Below, piece by piece: positions 1-12,800 of a DNA stretch of 27,103 bases. The notes under the pieces are model-generated. The model was given only the letters and a program-made list of their open reading frames with translations. It did not search any database and was not told where the DNA came from. The position numbers were made by a program, and so were the translations under genes. The stretch lies in NCBI GenBank assembly GCA_003024985.2, contig PXIH01S0000090.1; one strand, written 5' to 3'. This stretch comes from Euperipatoides rowelli (lineage: Eukaryota; Onychophora; Udeonychophora; Euonychophora; Peripatopsidae). The first letter of the stretch is position 1. Each line of letters begins with the position of its first letter.

Positions 1-727
1 GAAAAAATTGGAATTTTATTGAGGCAGCCAGTTTTTACACATGGTCAATTGTAAGTCGCAGCAAGTAGAGTTGGTCATTAAATAATTTGAGATTTTATAT
101 TGGAGTGGTAGAAGTCAATATTTCGGAAATGGGCTGGAGTGGAAAGGGTTAATACTACAGCTGTAAATGGTATTGCATGTCGTATATTTTATATAAAGTC
201 AAAATCATAGAATTTACCCTGGTATGATCTGAACGAATATAAGGGACATTTGACTCTTTCCTCTTGAAAAATCATGTTTAATATCAATGATTGTTACCCT
301 TCTCTCTTACTTTCTTCTCCCAGAAACATGATTTAAACAACTTTTTTTTTTTAAAAAAAATCAAGTATCAGGAAAGAAAATAGGAGAAAGCTAATCACAA
401 TTGGTTAGACATAGGATTATAAAAGGGAAAATAATCTTTTCAAAAAAGAATTAGCAATGATTTGCATATACAATTTATTGTATTGAATAAAGAAGCCCAA
501 TATTATTAATTTAAAAATCTAGTTCAAGGAAAGGAAATGTCTCTAATTATCCAATTTACTAACAATAAATATCAATAAATATTTTATTCAAAATTTTCAA
601 TTCAGCCCTAACAGAAGAAAAAAAAATCACAAAAAAAAAAAGAAAGAAAGAAATCCGAAACACATGTTTAAAGCTCATTAGAAAATTGTCAAAAATCTTT
701 ACTATACTAAAAAATAAAACTACTTAC
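1..727. other. COPB2 intron 7 (partial)
   Basis: Non-coding, AT-rich. Apart from the piggyBac-like right end at 96-152, only homopolymer tracts are visible, including A-rich runs near 350 and 620-645. No exon was found on either strand. Confidence 0.7.
96..152. mobile_element. piggyBac-like element, right terminus only
   Basis: The ~57 bp ending in GGAAAGGG/TTAA (TTAA at 149-152) nearly match the block ending at 11212: the TATTGGAGT, GTAGAAGTCAATATTTCGGAA and GTGGAAAGGGTTAAT words are shared. Read inward, the end begins CCCTTTCCACTCC next to TTAA, the usual layout of piggyBac-type ends. The rest of this copy lies to the left of, or outside, the window. No transposase is seen. Confidence 0.55.
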
Positions 728-3800: not shown

Positions 3801-6800
3801 AGTTACTGTATATATTTTCATATACAGTATATTAAATGAGACATTGTTTCTGGTAGAAAAATATCTAATTCTTAGGCACTAATGAATTGAATTAAAAAGC
3901 CTTCTAGCGAAAACTAAAGTATATGTTAGTCTAGAGGTTCTAAAAAGTGACAGTCAAATACGAACATACTGTATACCAGTATTTATTGCAGTTGACTGAA
4001 CATCATAAAACACACACTATTTATTGCAAATGACTTATAGAAGTTACAGAAATGTAGGCCAATACTCTTTTGTTTTAAATTTATGAAATTAAAAAAATAT
4101 ACGATTATATCCATCCGAAAAATTAAATTTTTTTTGTACAATAAACACGATAGGCATAAAATCATAAAAAGGGATAAATTTAGTATATTTTATGGAAAAA
4201 TTGTGAGAATTTATAGGTTTGCTGAAGTCTAAAAGCTTTTCAAAAATGATAAAGTTTAATCTAATTACAAGAGAAAGTTTTATCTTATTGGGCATTAACT
4301 AATATGGTAATAGTAAGAACAGCTTTCTTCCAACTAGTTGAATATAAAACATTTATGACAATACTCAGGTTTATATTTAAATAAAATAAGCTAAATATAA
4401 TATTTTGTACATCCTTTTTTTTTTGTGATCTAAAGCTATATATTTTTAAGGGTTCAAGAAAAGCTTAATTGAAGTTAAAATCAATACCTTAACTGTTCGA
4501 TCAAGAGATGCACTAGCAAAGGTATTATTGTCTTTAGGATTTATAACGATTTGCATAACATAATGAGTGTGTCCTTCAAAGATCTGCGTACATGACCATT
4601 TCTTTTCCCAATCCCATAACTTTATAAGCATATCATCTGAAAGAAGTAAATAGAACATTTAACATTTAAAGATATTAAAAAGAGCACAGGATGTGAGAAT
4701 GAAACATTTTTATTATCAGTCGAGTTTATTGATATACATTTTTGTTTTGTTTTTTATCACTTATGCATGAATGAAAGAAAACTTATAGCAATATTAAATA
4801 CAAAGCCAAAAGTTAAATCCAGTAGAGGAGGGGTGGTGGTGAAATGCATACAAGTTAGAGAAGTGCCAATAGACAAATAAAGCAATTATTTACATTACTA
4901 TTTTTTTTATTAAATAATTTATCACAAAATATTAAAAGTAACAACAAAATGAAAATAACAATTCTGTGACAAAGATTCTGGGCTTCCATACAAATTATAT
5001 GGTGAAAACAAGAGACCCAAAAAAATACTGCTCCCTGTTGTTGACTCAGAGCTCTTGAAAGACTATTCTGGCAAGGTAGATCAACTGGGCTTCCCAAATT
5101 ATAACAAAAAAAGTATTCTAAAAGAAAAATACTGAGGTGTCTTCCATAAACTACATCATGCTAGAACGTCCCTTTTAACGTGGGGTAGAATAAATGTGGG
5201 GAGGGAGGGGTCGAATAAACGTGGCTTTGTGATGATGATGATGGAGGGAGGGGGTTTGGAATGTGATGTCATATAATAAATAAAAAAAATCCACAAATCT
5301 TCAATTGCGTATACAGTAAATTAAATACAGGCACACCCCGGTTCACGGACCCTCGTGAGTACGGACACATTTACAGTAGCACCCTACCCTGCTTCATACG
5401 AACAGACAATGAAAGTCATTATTCGAATAAACAAATGCATTAATAGTTTTAGAAAAATATGTTAAAAAATTATATCAACATATAATACTCGTTTAATATT
5501 TTTTAGTTTTTTAATGAATTAATAAATTGTCTAATCCATTACATTAATGGAAAAGAGGGGGTGAGGGGTCAAACTAATATTGTGATGTAATTTCATATAG
5601 GGGGTATTAAATTGTGCGACAAATTGTGATGAGGGGGTGGGAGTACAAAATAGAAAAAAATTGTGTCCTGTAGTTTATGGATAATCCCCGAGATGGAAAT
5701 ATTAATATAAAGGATTTTCCCATTATGCCTAAGTTCAAACTCCCTATATTATTGATGGTTGATGAGATCAAAAAATTTTCACTTAATTTAGGGGGGCCAC
5801 CATGTAGTAAAGGTTAAGAACTGCTGGTCTAAGCCATTACATTAATTCATTTTGCTTTGTGGAAGAAAATGAGGGGGCGGGGAGGTTTATTGTGATGTAA
5901 TTTCATTTAGGGGGTATAAATTGGGTAACAAATTGTGATGAGGAGGGGGGGAGAGGACTACTACAAATAGAAAAAATTGTGTTCTGTAGTTTATGGATAA
6001 TCCCTGATGGAAATATTAATAGAAAGGATTTTTCCATTATACCCAAGTTCATACTCCCTCTATTACTGATGGTGGATGAGATCAATTATAAAATGAAAAT
6101 ATCTACTGTATGTGTAAAAGAGATACAAACTTAGTTTTCAGGTCAAAGAAAGTATTTGATTCTGGTATTTTGCAAAAACTCTAGTATCCTACTTGAAAGA
6201 TTTTGGAAAGTGATTCAAACAATTTATAATTTAGTTACAGTGTATACACTTGGTGGCTTCAACATAATAAATATACAAAATTCCTAACTGCTAAAATCTA
6301 GTTGGTTAATTATTACTGTTTAAAAATGTTCCTAGGTTCAATTGCATGCTCACAAAGTAATAAGAATGAGCATTGACATGCTATGGTTTCAGTGTGGTAA
6401 CTCGATGTTAATATCGTTGTATCCGCACAATTTGGACATCAATGAAGTGCAGGTTGTACCAGTGGACAATGTTCATCGACCTAGATTTCAGAGGTTTGGA
6501 CTGAAATCTAGTAATTGGTTCTTTTGCAGTGGAAATGGACCAATGATGAGTTGAGAAATATGTTTAAAATTCACACTGCAGTCTGTGCTTATGTAAATCA
6601 GCTAGGTTTGTTTAACAAATTAAACCGTGTTAGCTTCAGTAACATGGAAATATGATTAGCCTTTATTAACATGTGATGACTGTTGCTACGATATTTTTTA
6701 TATAGTATATTAAAAACACTTTTTAAACAGTCACAATATTACTCCAAGTATTAATATAAAAGACTGGAAAAAATATCAAGTTAGATCACTTAAGCTTATT

Positions 6801-9800
6801 ATATTCAACTGGTTCAATGCTAGATTTAAGGCCTTAATTAAATGCCATTTTTTTTAAATTAATATTGTAAATTATTCCTGTAATTTATTAATGAACATTT
6901 TATATGAGAGTAGGAGAACCATGCAGTTTGAATATAAGGTAAATATGAAGAAAATCATGTTTTAAACTTTAGCAAATCATAAATTTACTTACCGCTACTA
7001 GTCAGAATAAATGGCTGTGTAGGATGAACTGCGATGGATCTTAAATAATCAGAATGAGCTTCAAACACATGGACACGCTCCAGAGTATTATAATTAAAAA
7101 CACGAATTTGCATGTCGTCCTAAAACGAATTAGAACACTAATTTCATAAAAAATATGCATTTGTTGTAGGCCTATATACACAATACATTGTTTATAAGCA
7201 TATTGTGTATACACATTGTATATACTGTGTACATATACTAGAACATATACACTAAAAATATCTAAAATACAGTATACTGGGTACATTGTCATTTAAATAC
7301 AAAAAAAAACACAATATAGAAGGCCAACACATTTTAGTAGATAGTGTAATAATGTAGAAAAGAGGTTGATAAATACATGATCGATTGATATGGAAGGGTA
7401 CAGTATGCTGGCATGCAAAGAAGGATCAAGATTTATTAAGAAATGTTAAAACAGAAGATTATAATAATCATAGATCTCGGCAGGCCACACATTTTAATTT
7501 AGTCTCCATTCCCATCAACTTTTAGTTTAGATACTGTACATAGGGAATTCCTATCCTTAATTAATAAAATCTAGCAAAAAAAAAAAAAACTGGAATTCTT
7601 ACAGATCCTGTTATAATCCAGTTCTTTCGTGGTACAAACTTTGCCGCCCTAACAGGAAGATCGCAGACTTCAAACGATTTGACCAGTTGCTGAAAAAACA
7701 AAAAAAATTCATTTTTTTTAGGAATAATTTTATAAATTAAATTATAAATTTGATAATGCAATAAAATTTTGGATCAAAATAAATGGCTTTCAAATTAGTT
7801 AAATCAGTACCCAACTATGTGGAGCCTGGAGTCTAAACATTTGATGGTAATGAGGATGGATATAAAGTGGTTCATTTCAATAAGTAATCACGGCCTACCT
7901 AATTCAGCAGGTAACCTTTTGAACAGTAAGTTTAACTTCATCAACGTATAGGTATATAGCAGGGTTGCTCAACCAGCCGATCACGATCTACAGGTGGATT
8001 TTGACATGTTGTCTGGTAGATCTTTCTTTTTTATGTTTTCATTTTTTTTTCTATTTGAATATACACTAATCCCTCATATAACACTGTTTCAAAGATACCC
8101 AAATCATATATACACCAATCCAAGAGGCTTTACATGAGTTACATGATCCTGGAAATGCCAAATATATAATTACAGCTGAGACAACTTTATTGAATTATAT
8201 TCAACTGTTTAAAAGTTTTAATGAATAAATTCAACATTCCTGTACAATGAAAAAAATCAAATCAGTATTTAAAGACTAGATTTTCAACAATCCCTCTATG
8301 CAGGATGAGCTGAACATTGTGGCAAATTAATAGAAATTTGATTTGTTAGAATAATAAAATCACTATGTATATTTTTTTTTTATATTTTCTGATAAAATAT
8401 TTTTGGTTTTTTTCTTCTCTTTTTAAAAATATCAGTCAACAACACTCTCTCTCTCTTTCTTCTTTTTATTTATTTATAATTAAAAAAAATAAAACTGATT
8501 TTTTTTTTATTTAAAATTTATTAAATTAGGCTGAACTGTATATTTAATTATCTTATTATTGTACAATAATTTCAATATTGAGAATTTTCAAAAAATTTAA
8601 GAACTTAAAATTAGTTTTAATTTTTATATTTATTTTGTTGCTCTTTATTTATATTTTGATACTTTGTTCTTGATTGTTTAATAAACATCGACATCAGATT
8701 CTAACTTTGTATTTTTTCCATGTACACAGGTAGATCATAAGGTCGCTTGTCTAAATAAAAATAGCTCGCACCTACAGTACAAAAAGGTTAGGTACTCCTG
8801 GTATATATGTGTATGGGGAAAACATGATTCAATCATATGATTTTTAGTTAATTTCTAAAATTTGTTACAGCAAGTTTATTTTGTATGAATCTAATTTATA
8901 CATATTGAAACAATATAGTGTAGTAATTGTCTCATGCAATCAGAAAATTTGCAATGCTTTTTATTTATTTGGGTCATGAACCGTTTTTATTGGATTTTTT
9001 TTTTTTTTCATTTCAATATAACAAATCAACATATCCCATTTTAACTAGTAGCAGTTATGAAAAATTATGGTTTCAAATTTATCCATTTATACGAAGAACT
9101 GAACAAAAAAAAAAGTAACCCTTTCAACTCCAAAGTCGACTCTCAGTCAACAAATTTCAATTAGCAGTTCCACTCCAAAGTCGATTGAGAATCGACTTTT
9201 TATCAGACAGCAAAGCTAAACTATAAACATTGGAGACTAAGAACTAAAGAATAGGTGAGTGCAGCGGTAAGGAAATAAAAATAGTAATGCTAGTTGTGTT
9301 TAACAAATAAGTGGTTATATTCAGGAAAACATTCATCATTAACAATACAGCATAATTGGCCCTTTATTAATATTGGGCTAACATAGAATAAGGAAATGAA
9401 GTGCTTACCCCAGCATTAGACAGGAACAATGTACGGCGGTTTCCCCAAAGGCGGAGACTCGGGCCTCTGCGGGAGGAACAGAAGGTTTCCCTCCCTTATT
9501 CCACAGTTCCCAACGGCCGAAACACGGACCGCGGGATTCGGTGTTGGGCTCTTCCCCTTTCACTCGCCGCTACCATGGGAATCTTCATTAGTTTATTTTC
9601 TTCCGCGTATTGAAATGCTTAATTTCAGTGGGTGAGTTTACCACCCACTTCAGGTTGCGCTTTCGGGCAACCCTACTATTCAGGAGGTTCTAATCGGTCG
9701 CCGTGGACCACTAGGGGCCTCGCACCCGCATGGGGTGTGTGCTCTGTTCGCGGAGACTCGGCCTCCGCGAGCGGACTGGAAGGTGTCCCACCCTTACTCC

Positions 9801-12800
9801 AGTTCCCGGCGGCCATAGCACGGACCAAGGGCTTCGGCATTGGGCTCTTCCCCTTTCACTCACCGCTACCGGGGGAATCCTTGTTAGTTTATTTTCCGCC
9901 GCTTAGTGATATGCTTAAATTCAGCGGGTGATCTCGTCCGATCCGAGTTATAATGTATTTATTAGTTTATTGTAAGTAATATTTTGTTTAACTTAAAATG
10001 CTTGCTGATCTAAAATTGTTGATTACAAAATGAAAGTGTTTGCCAATATTATTTTTTTATCAGTTCTCTCATCAGGTTGATGGATGAACACGTTGCTTTG
10101 TTTTCCTGAAATAGATTTAAATCAGTTGGTAAATGTGCGAGATGGTGTGAACAATTAATCACAGAATCTTGTGCGCATATTATATAAGCCAGAGACTCCT
10201 GTCATTCGGGTCTGCAGGTCTTATCTTTACAATGAGAACCTGCCACCATTTTAAGTCGGGCCAGCCCTGAATTATTCATCTGGTCCTGCAAATGTAATAG
10301 GCTGTGACACACAGCCTATCCAAAGTTATTATTTCTTTTTTTTGGTCCACAGTTTTTATGTTTTTACTACAACGTTAAGCAACCTCGGATTCTTCTGTTT
10401 TCCGTTACGGCACCGTTTATGACGGTAGTTTCTGGCTAACTGACGCAGCTATGTGTTTTCCGCCATTGGGGAAACCGCCGTACATTGTTACCTGTCTAAT
10501 GCTGGGGTAAGCAATTCATTTCCTTATTCTATGTTACCCCAATATTAATAAAAGGTCAATTATGCTGTATTGTTAATGACAAATGTTTTCCAGAATATAT
10601 TAACCACTTATTTGTTAAAACACAACTAGCATTACTGTTTTTCTTTCATTACCGCTGCACTTACCTATTCTTTCATTCTTAGTCTCCGATGTTTATAGTA
10701 AAGCGTGGCTGCTGACATAGCAATGAGGCCAGCACATTTATATATNNNNNNNNNNNNNNNNNNNNNNNNNNNNNNNNNNNNNNNNNNNNNNNNNNNNNNN
10801 NNNNNNNNNNNNNNNNNNNNNNNNNNNNNNNNNNNNNNNNNNNNNNNNNNNNNNNNNNNNNNNNNNNNNNNNNNNNNNNNNNNNNNNNNNNNNNNNNNNN
10901 NNNNNNNNNNNNNNNNNNNNNNNNNNNNNNNNNNNNNNNNNNNNNNNNNNNNNNNNNNNNNNNNNNNNNNNNNNNNNNNNNNNNNNNNNNNNNNNNNNNN
11001 NNNNNNNNNNNNNNNNNNNNNNNNNNNNNNNNNNNNNNNNNNNNNNNNNNNNNNNCATAATTGGCCCTGCATGTGTGTAAAAAAGTCATTAGATATTCAT
11101 GCAAACCATTTTAAAATTATTTTTTCTTCATTTCTAAACAAATTAAAAAAAAAATTATATTGGAGTAGTAGAAGTCAATATTTCGGAACTCTATTGCAGT
11201 GGAAAGGGTTAATAGAATTTTATTTTTTTAAATTGCACAAAGTGCGCCCCTTCCCCACCCATCCTTTTGTAATATTAAAAATTAGGTATTCACACAAAAG
11301 TTATGACAAAAAATATTTAAATCTGACGTACAGTATCCACAATTATTAATTAGAATGAAAATATTCAGTTTACAGTAAAAATTATTCTACAGGAATCTTT
11401 ATTGGGTTTCTTTCATAATCAGATAACTTTTAATTTAACTTTATATTTCGATTTTCAAAATTATCCTACGCTTAAAAAAAAAAAAAATTCTTCGCAGCAA
11501 TTACAATTTAAATACTTTGGTAAATTTAATAAGCCATATAGGCTGGTGTCATCAGAAGAGATGTGGGGATGAGTAGAAAAAATAATGGTTCAATTCTTCC
11601 TATATCTGCATCACCAATCCCATTATATAATAAATTGTTTTTAGATCTTTCATTTTATATTACCTGTGATTCATGATTCCATACATGAATATTGCCATTA
11701 TATAAACTAGCTAACATCCATGGTTCTGTTGGGTGGAGATCAACACATTTCACTCTGTCAGAACGAGCAGAAAGCTTTCGCTTGATATCTAATCTTAACG
11801 GCTAAATGTAAAAAAAAATAGATTAAAAATACACATTAATGGCCACAAGTTTAAATCAAGCATAAATTAAATCAAAGTGATAAATTATAAATAGAAGTAC
11901 TTTTAGCAATTTGAGAAAATTTAGAACAGACTAAATTAATGAAAACCAAAAGTAATCATAATTATTTAAAAATAGGCCAATAGGCTTAAACCTTTACTAT
12001 TTGGCATAGAACAAGGATTTATAGGTCATAAAACAATGAATTTTTTTATATACCGGTAGCCTACAGTATAAATACTTTTTTTTTTTTTAAAAAGTCATTA
12101 AAAACAAATATTTTTACTTGATGACCCCCCCCCCCAAAAAAAAAAACAAAACAACAACAACATAATTGAACAATGACATTAACAAGTTAAGCCTTTTTAA
12201 TTCCTCATCCTGAAAACAGTAGTGTTTTCAGAATTCATTTGGCTGTTCTGATTTCAAGGAATTGGTTATCATTTGTGGTAAATACAGGCAGGTACAAAAT
12301 GTATTTCATATGGAAGAAATTGTAACATATTGTCCGTGGTAACATTCTGTTATGGCTTAGACAGATGAAATTCCGCCTTAACTATTAGTTAGTGAATGTA
12401 GGCTATGTTATGAAATATGAATTCAAAATTATTACAATTTATCGGATTGTAGCAACTGATGAATGAAATGATAAAGCAATTCAGGCATGAAATTTTTTTT
12501 TTTCCAAGGTGGGAATTATGTAGGCTACAGTACCTTGCTTGATAGGTCTCAAGAAGGTGATTTTAGGGTAAAGGGAAAATAAATTTAATTCAATTTGAAT
12601 GGCTAAAGGAGAGGTGGAAAACCAGGTGCCCATGGGTACCCTACTTTTTTTTATTATGGCCTCGTATGATTTTGCTAATAGTGCTAATATATCTATTGTA
12701 ATTATTATTGTTTATTTATTTATTCCAGGAATAAAAGTGTCCAATTTTGTTAGTACTTCTTTTGTCAATATTCAATTCAGAGACTATATAGAAAATATAA

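Follow-up and report, generated by a model that had tools for sequence, protein, structure and literature searches.

We describe a relic of a non-autonomous piggyBac-like element whose interior appears to be a one-off, old patch of foreign sequence joined by microhomology, a reading to which we give a probability of about 50%. The patch most likely originated through the repair of broken DNA or through reverse transcription. The coatomer beta' gene harbors the relic in one of its introns. In the window (i.e., the whole 27,103-nucleotide stretch of DNA that was analysed), three unrelated things (piggyBac-like ends, pieces of an LTR-like unit, and 28S rRNA sequence) are nested rather than forming one element, as judged by sequence comparison, and we see in the locus an unusual relic and not a new mobile family. 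What the sequence shows directly is which pieces are present, how they are ordered and oriented, that three inner joins overlap, that the site is intronic, and that the composite occurs once in the assembly. The features are as follows.

11664-11801, minus strand: coatomer beta' (COPB2) exon flanking the relic (E = 5.6e-34 to PDB 8d41_A residues 20-65)
7603-7686, minus strand: next coatomer beta' exon, flanking the relic opposite the first; assigned from its translated peptide, which fills the space between 8d41_A residues 65 and 95
6994-7119, minus strand: following coatomer beta' exon (E = 5.8e-34 to 8d41_A residues 95-136)
9116-9203, plus strand: left end of the non-autonomous piggyBac-like element, with TIR CCCTTTCAACTCCA at 9119 and flank GTAA; at least 12 other left-end matches in the assembly
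9204-9455, minus strand: left arm, matching 10459-10711 in the 3' third of the LTR-like unit but inverted (inverted repeats I1-I4)
9451-9455, no strand: junction of the LTR piece and 28S piece 1 (overlap GCGGA, 5 nt)
9451-9635, minus strand: 28S piece 1, roughly 28S nt 24-215; 82% identity to C156 rDNA
9634-9635, no strand: junction of 28S pieces 1 and 2 (overlap GA, 2 nt)
9634-9947, minus strand: 28S piece 2 (RF02543), comprising about the first 310 nt of 28S, 5' terminus included; 77-84% identity to rDNA at C156 and C904
9947, no strand: junction where the LTR-like unit's 5' end joins the 28S 5' end, with a 1-nt overlap (G)
9947-10743, plus strand: LTR-like unit, BEL/Pao-type, with the right arm at 10459-10711, a TATA-like sequence at 10178-10188, and AATAAA at 10549-10554
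10746-11055, no strand: assembly gap of 310 N, covering the right junction of the patch
11056-11212, plus strand: right end of the piggyBac-like element, with TIR CCCTTTCCACTGCA at 11195-11208 (minus strand) and flank TTAA; at least 22 other right-end matches

Outer piggyBac-like ends

A short TIR with a CCC/CCY start is a hallmark of the piggyBac superfamily, and CCCTTTCCACTCCA-type ends lie on both sides of the relic; the TTAA/CCCTTT-type ends reported in the initial annotation of this DNA are thus real. TTAA adjoins 7 of the 11 family-type ends having at most one TIR mismatch, the other four flanks being GTAA (the window's left end), TTTA, TTTA, and TTGA. A family-end search of the assembly, in which 40 of 150 candidates were scored, gave at least 34 other end matches (a lower bound), and the left end was 89 to 92% identical to three full family copies (L014, L015, and L016). 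On these comparisons, the outer ends are those of a multicopy, non-autonomous piggyBac-like family. A genomic copy at C1322 (L024) carries a 636-amino-acid ORF with a DDE_Tnp_1_7 match (PF13843, E = 1.5e-73), the exact TIR, and subterminal similarity to the three full copies (37 bp, 84 to 86%, E = 3e-7 to 6e-6). The match between the window's own ends and L024 is confined to the TIR (E = 0.02 to 0.04), and the window's family is linked to this transposase copy through other family members. Among 30 transposase loci in all, whose ends were compared with those of the window, no convincing match besides L024 was found. A TTAA site, the characteristic TIR start, and a related DDE_Tnp_1_7 copy were each found, in agreement with membership in the piggyBac superfamily.

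Inverted arms, LTR-like unit, and 28S rRNA pieces

The two inverted arms of about 250 bp already recognised between these ends were confirmed: 9208-9455 and 10459-10711 differ at 19 of 248 aligned positions (92.3% identity), far above chance. They are foreign to the outer family and are pieces of another repeat. The LTR-like unit is about 795 bp long, with the right arm as its 3' third, and has copies at C3902 (78%), C685 (74%), and C3852 (69%, over its 5' part). The unit query gave four matches (three of three candidates scored), and a query with the C3902 unit gave five (four of four candidates). A BEL/Pao pol lies downstream of the unit copy at C3902, in the same orientation, and a CCHC knuckle lies downstream of the copy at C3852. 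The evidence for the unit lying upstream of pol comes from L010, where positions 4900-5724, on the same strand as the unit, match L062, a Peptidase_A17 (PF05380) locus, with E values to 4.6e-19; direct Pfam scans of the L010 and L062 pieces named no reverse transcriptase family. Because a BEL/Pao pol follows the unit at C3902, 9947-10743 is probably the LTR of a BEL/Pao element. We grade it only as probably an LTR, since no copy among the unit matches has paired, near-identical LTRs around one element and the TG...CA ends and TSD were not fixed. A search for the LTR ends through a two-LTR relative gave no unit match of weight in the sequence upstream at C3111, and a promoter and terminator scan of the unit with bacterial patterns was near the shuffle level and uninformative.

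The antisense block of 28S 5'-end sequence, also part of the initial annotation, matches RF02543 (LSU_rRNA_eukarya) on the minus strand from 9951 (123.8 bits, E = 1.2e-30), starting at model position 1; an Rfam fast-filter scan of the whole window listed nothing. The block consists of two 28S pieces with the same orientation (repeat D1) that are 83% alike ungapped (32 mismatches at 177 aligned positions) and together span about the first 300 to 330 nt of 28S. Comparison with human 28S places the end of piece 2 at what we take to be within a few nucleotides of the mature 28S 5' end. When the assembly was queried with the block, all five candidates were scored and five matches obtained, the other four being degenerate rDNA at C156 (two) and C904 (two); arms and unit are absent from all four. 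Because this DNA search gave only degenerate stretches, the functional rDNA array is probably outside the assembly. Pieces 1 and 2 and the four rDNA stretches show a star-like pattern, with 21 minority states in piece 1, 15 in piece 2, and 1 common to both among 179 columns, and both pieces therefore look like separate captures of near-normal 28S. A 28S-derived SINE was rejected, there being five genomic matches in all and no shared tail. The 28S pieces run sense to the coatomer beta' transcript, inside the 250-nt inverted arms; effects through double-stranded RNA would be hypothetical.

The foreign sequence lies inside a TIR element, and the overlaps of 5, 2, and 1 nt concern its three inner joins only. 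The 5-nt overlap requires TCCGC in the source LTR, a motif present in the window's right arm and absent from C3902 and C685. Where the window switches to the unit (9947), the C156 rDNA continues into ITS2, and the unit copies at C3902, C685, and C3852 start at or within about 10 bp of the same point, with unrelated flanks. A further LTR piece in the gap was suggested by a 13-mer after the gap, CATAATTGGCCCT, that also occurs in the left arm; this idea was dropped because family members at C4172 and C2125 have CATAATTATCCC at that place, and the 13-mer is mostly a variant of the piggyBac-like family.

Origin of the patch

In the reading that we favor, a non-autonomous piggyBac copy resident in the coatomer beta' intron would have suffered an internal break, presumably the trigger, which would have been filled with short foreign pieces joined by microhomology: an inverted BEL/Pao LTR fragment, two 28S 5'-end fragments in antisense, and an almost complete LTR, in that order. 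The pieces may have come in as cDNA or as copied DNA fragments, and the patch would represent a single event or a short series of events, old and without multiplication. Such gap filling inside a TIR element would make the relic Pack-TIR-like. In support, piggyBac homology ends sharply at 9201-9204 in all three full copies compared and picks up again after the gap, and no second copy of the composite was found with the 28S, unit, and C3902-unit queries. In yeast, Ty1 cDNA and rDNA are reported to be inserted at breaks, in some cases as several fragments and in inverted orientation (PMC11724301, PMC10802722), and gap filling is described as the source of most single-copy Pack-TIRs in animals, where 190 of 281 show microhomology (median, 2 bp) (PMC8277862). 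Against the patch, divergence is uneven between the arms (19/248) and the 28S pieces (32/177; Fisher p = 0.0014) and does not fit one event under one rate; this contrast is weaker without CpG-context changes (p = 0.080) and with transversions only (11/248 versus 13/177, p = 0.21). Moreover, the right junction lies in the gap, and overlaps of 1 to 2 nt are ordinary by chance. Pack-TIRs have a cis bias, which was not seen here: none of the matches listed for the end, 28S, and unit searches is a donor on contig C48.

At the 28S/LTR junction, natural ends meet on both sides, an arrangement that random DNA fragments would seldom produce; it counts against the patch and favors reverse transcription. 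A possible, if doubtful, alternative is a reverse-transcription chimera of BEL/Pao strong-stop cDNA and 28S rRNA captured in the piggyBac relic. Starting in U5/R, to which the left arm would be antisense, the BEL/Pao reverse transcriptase would make minus-strand strong-stop cDNA, switch onto 28S rRNA at the 5-nt match, switch again within 28S, and continue until the 28S 5' end. End joining would then link this product to a second LTR cDNA at its U3 end, before capture in the relic. LTR reverse transcription makes the 3'-end part of the LTR first, and it is to this part of the unit that the left arm is antisense; the 28S sequence also stops near the mature 5' terminus, where it abuts the unit's own 5' end or a point close to it. 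Capture of 28S fragments by mammalian LINE-1, through either ligation or a template switch, is reported for 18 loci (median, 269 nt; PMC13174262). However, the scheme builds on an LTR identity that we infer, no transcription start was located in the unit, the left arm lacks about 25 to 30 nt of the unit's 3' end, and the final join needs an extra end-joining step. Judged by the TATA-like sequence at 10178-10188, R would lie far upstream of 10459, where the arm has its inner end, and the arm would represent just part of a strong-stop. A failed first strand transfer, in which the reverse transcriptase jumped from BEL/Pao strong-stop cDNA to 28S rRNA and the chimera became fixed in the genome, is offered tentatively; if true, 28S rRNA capture, known for LINE-1, would extend to LTR retroelements, the first such sign, and the locus would be the fossil of a failed strand transfer.

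Insertion of a BEL/Pao element at the 28S 5' end of an rDNA unit, followed by copying of the junction fragment and an inverted LTR piece into the intron, would explain why the unit's 5' end directly abuts 28S as at an integration site, and degenerate rDNA is indeed dispersed in the genome at C156 and C904. We consider it unlikely: the 28S end must coincide with the insertion site by chance, and 28S lies beside none of the three other unit copies (C3902, C685, and C3852), although the missing LTR beside rDNA is a weak negative because the functional array is seemingly absent from the assembly. Contigs misjoined across the N gap or chimeric within it are a still less probable source, although the 310-N gap lies inside the structure and inverted repeats are difficult for short reads; the coatomer beta' exons are in order on both sides, and the arms and both 28S pieces lie on one ungapped stretch (8700-10745), with their own old mutations. 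The initial annotation had read the locus as a piggyBac-like element carrying 28S between its arms and, should other copies exist, as one copy of a family dispersing rRNA-like sequence. The physical nesting holds, every part lying between matching TTAA-type ends, and piggyBac elements such as Pokey are reported to be able to carry rDNA repeats (PMC3849761). The unity is not supported, since the outer homology stops before the arms and the arms occur elsewhere without 28S. Ends without arms or 28S were found among at least 34 other end matches (40 of 150 candidates scored) and the full copies compared. No other locus found in the assembly with the 28S, unit, and C3902-unit queries has both arms and 28S, the outcome that the annotation itself had named as refuting a family. 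A TTAA-type family whose unit includes arms and 28S is, in our view, extremely improbable.

Comparison with known systems

As a relic, the locus shows that DNA transposon, LTR retroelement, and rRNA sequences can meet at a single site without a mobile family forming, and it cautions against reading nested repeats as one element. To our knowledge, known cases of LTR-mediated retroposition concern mRNAs; they likewise involve an LTR-element reverse transcriptase switching onto cellular RNA, which here would be, as a proposal, rRNA. The complex templated insertions reported at yeast double-strand breaks resemble the patch in their LTR-retrotransposon cDNA and rDNA donors, multi-fragment and inverted pieces, and microhomology, but they are described as induced, recent, and mostly short, whereas the pieces here are 180 to 800 bp long, old, and in an animal-type gene intron (PMC11724301, PMC10802722). 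Animal single-copy Pack-TIRs, as described, share foreign sequence within a TIR element, a single copy, breakpoint microhomology, here at the inner joins, and proposed gap filling; here, in contrast, the fillers are a transposon end and rRNA sequence, in four pieces, and no nearby donor was found (PMC8277862). The reported 28S rRNA/LINE-1 chimeras likewise fuse short 28S segments (median, 269 nt) to a retroelement, but by target-primed LINE-1, whereas the partner here is LTR-like, with inverted arms and no TSD or poly(A) seen (PMC13174262). The combination had been called unfamiliar, which was too strong, since Daphnia Pokey is likewise a piggyBac element with rDNA-derived repeats; in the published description, these are IGS and ITS2 repeats, family-inherited at 2 to 5 per element, whereas the sequence here is 28S, at one locus, and degenerate (PMC3849761).

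A composite relic in a coatomer beta' intron

The three features named in the initial annotation (TTAA-type ends, inverted arms, and antisense 28S rRNA sequence) were all found in the window.

Features in and around the relic, with junction overlaps read from the sequences
6994-7119, minus strand: coatomer beta' exon (8d41_A residues 95-136; E = 5.8e-34)
7603-7686, minus strand: candidate coatomer beta' exon (peptide fits the 8d41_A residues between the two searched exons)
9119 and 11195-11208: TIR-like ends
9208-9455 and 10459-10711: inverted arms, inverted copies (19 mismatches in 248 aligned positions)
9451-9455: LTR piece/28S piece 1 junction, overlap GCGGA
9451-9635, antisense: 28S piece 1 (shorter), roughly 28S nt 24-215
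9634-9635: 28S piece 1/piece 2 junction, overlap GA
9634-9947, antisense: 28S piece 2 (longer), from the 5' end of 28S to roughly nt 310
9947: 28S piece 2/unit junction, overlap G
9947-10743: LTR-like unit (~795 bp), containing the right arm
10746-11055: assembly gap (310 N)
11664-11801, minus strand: coatomer beta' exon (8d41_A residues 20-65; E = 5.6e-34)

Because coatomer beta' exons lie on both sides, the relic is intronic, and their order supports the scaffold across the N gap. The 28S pieces are sense relative to this gene. In its pre-mRNA, the arms (within window positions 9204-10711) could pair around a 1-kb loop with sense 28S pieces.

The 28S block (9451-9947) was confirmed by an RF02543 match on the minus strand from 9951 (123.8 bits, E = 1.2e-30), which begins at model position 1 and was missed by a whole-window scan under Rfam's fast filters. 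The block consists of two pieces in the same orientation rather than one. The 5-nt overlap presupposes a source LTR with TCCGC, which is present in the window's right arm; the unit copies on contigs C3902 and C685 differ. The left join between patch and piggyBac-like sequence is only approximately placed (about 9202), and the right join lies inside the N gap.

Copies of the outer and inner elements

The assembly searched (100.9 Mb, 4,324 contigs) contains the window at G000:C48:57306-84408. A query with 9119-11208 returned at least 46 matches from 40 of 150 candidates scored; among those listed, 4 fell in the window itself, 4 in LTR-like unit copies on C3902 and C685, and 4 in degenerate rDNA on C156 and C904; the others were at least 12 further left ends and at least 22 further right ends. 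Three whole copies (L014, L015, and L016, on C3571, C36, and C1434) have ends spaced 1.7 to 2.9 kb apart and a common left-end sequence of about 170 to 195 bp, to which the window's homology breaks off at 9201-9204. TTAA adjoins 7 of 11 family-type ends (the others: GTAA, TTTA, TTTA, and TTGA). A locus on C1322 (L024) carries a 636-aa open reading frame with DDE_Tnp_1_7 and no stop, an exact TIR, and subterminal similarity to the three whole copies (37 bp, 84 to 86%). Since the window's own ends match L024 in the TIR only, and no convincing match to them was found at the ends of other transposase loci, the piggyBac link runs via the family. There were 81 PF13843 matches in the assembly, indicating many piggyBac transposase remnants. 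Window positions 1-152 hold a second right end of this family (exact TIR and TTAA), entering from the left edge, and L015:2537-3080 holds a second, internal left end (TTAA and TIR), apparently nested or duplicated.

Other copies of the inner unit occur at C3902 (78%), C685 (74%), and, for the 5' part only, C3852 (69%); their starts lie no more than about 10 bp from the window's 28S-to-unit change point. The unit's sequence includes both a TATA-like box and AATAAA. In the same orientation, it is followed by BEL/Pao pol at C3902 (E down to 4.6e-19 in comparison with the Peptidase_A17 locus L062) and by a CCHC knuckle at C3852 (3 pattern matches in 305,467 bases of loci scanned, 2 at this same site). 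From these features, we take the unit to be probably a BEL/Pao LTR. Counting against this, direct Pfam scans named no family for the short pol pieces, genome searches found no two-LTR copy, and the ends of the unit are placed only approximately.

The initial annotation had raised a multi-copy family, but no other genomic place has both arms and 28S sequence, with all candidates scored for the 28S (5 of 5), unit (3 of 3), and C3902-unit (4 of 4) queries. Besides the window, the 28S candidates were four stretches of degenerate rDNA; the DNA search of the genome found no intact 28S gene. Long degenerate stretches including ITS2 or 28S (L012 and L013 on C156, about 30 kb apart; L009 on C904) are GC-rich islands in an AT-rich genome.

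Origin of the relic and known precedents

We give a probability of roughly 0.5 to a break within the piggyBac copy that would have been patched by several fragments via microhomology. Such patching would account for the single occurrence, the sharp end of piggyBac homology, the piece order, and the inverted LTR piece. Uptake of Ty cDNA and rDNA has been described at yeast breaks, with Ty in 3 and rDNA in 2 of 8 insertions in wild-type growing cells (PMC10802722); in rad27 mutants, complex insertions that included inverted pieces from a single locus were common (15 of 23, rDNA and Ty excluded from the count; PMC11724301). A reverse-transcription chimera, which we consider doubtful, better explains the two natural ends meeting at 9947 and the left arm being antisense to the unit's 3' end, but it lacks a mapped transcription start. 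Improbable, in our judgment, is a BEL/Pao insertion at the 28S 5' end within rDNA, with the junction fragment later copied into the intron.

Across six 28S fragments (179 columns), pieces 1 and 2 have 21 and 15 off-majority states, respectively. Because only one minority state is common to both, separate captures of near-normal 28S fit better than an already decayed copy that was duplicated internally. Divergence is higher between the 28S pieces (32/177) than between the arms (19/248; P = 0.0014), with P = 0.080 without CpG-context changes and P = 0.21 for transversions only; this comparison therefore does not establish a single event.

No LTR-element/28S chimera was found in the mainly open-access literature searched. 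Related combinations are already known: LINE-1/28S chimeras (PMC13174262) and the piggyBac elements termed Pokey, which carry rDNA-derived repeats (PMC3849761).
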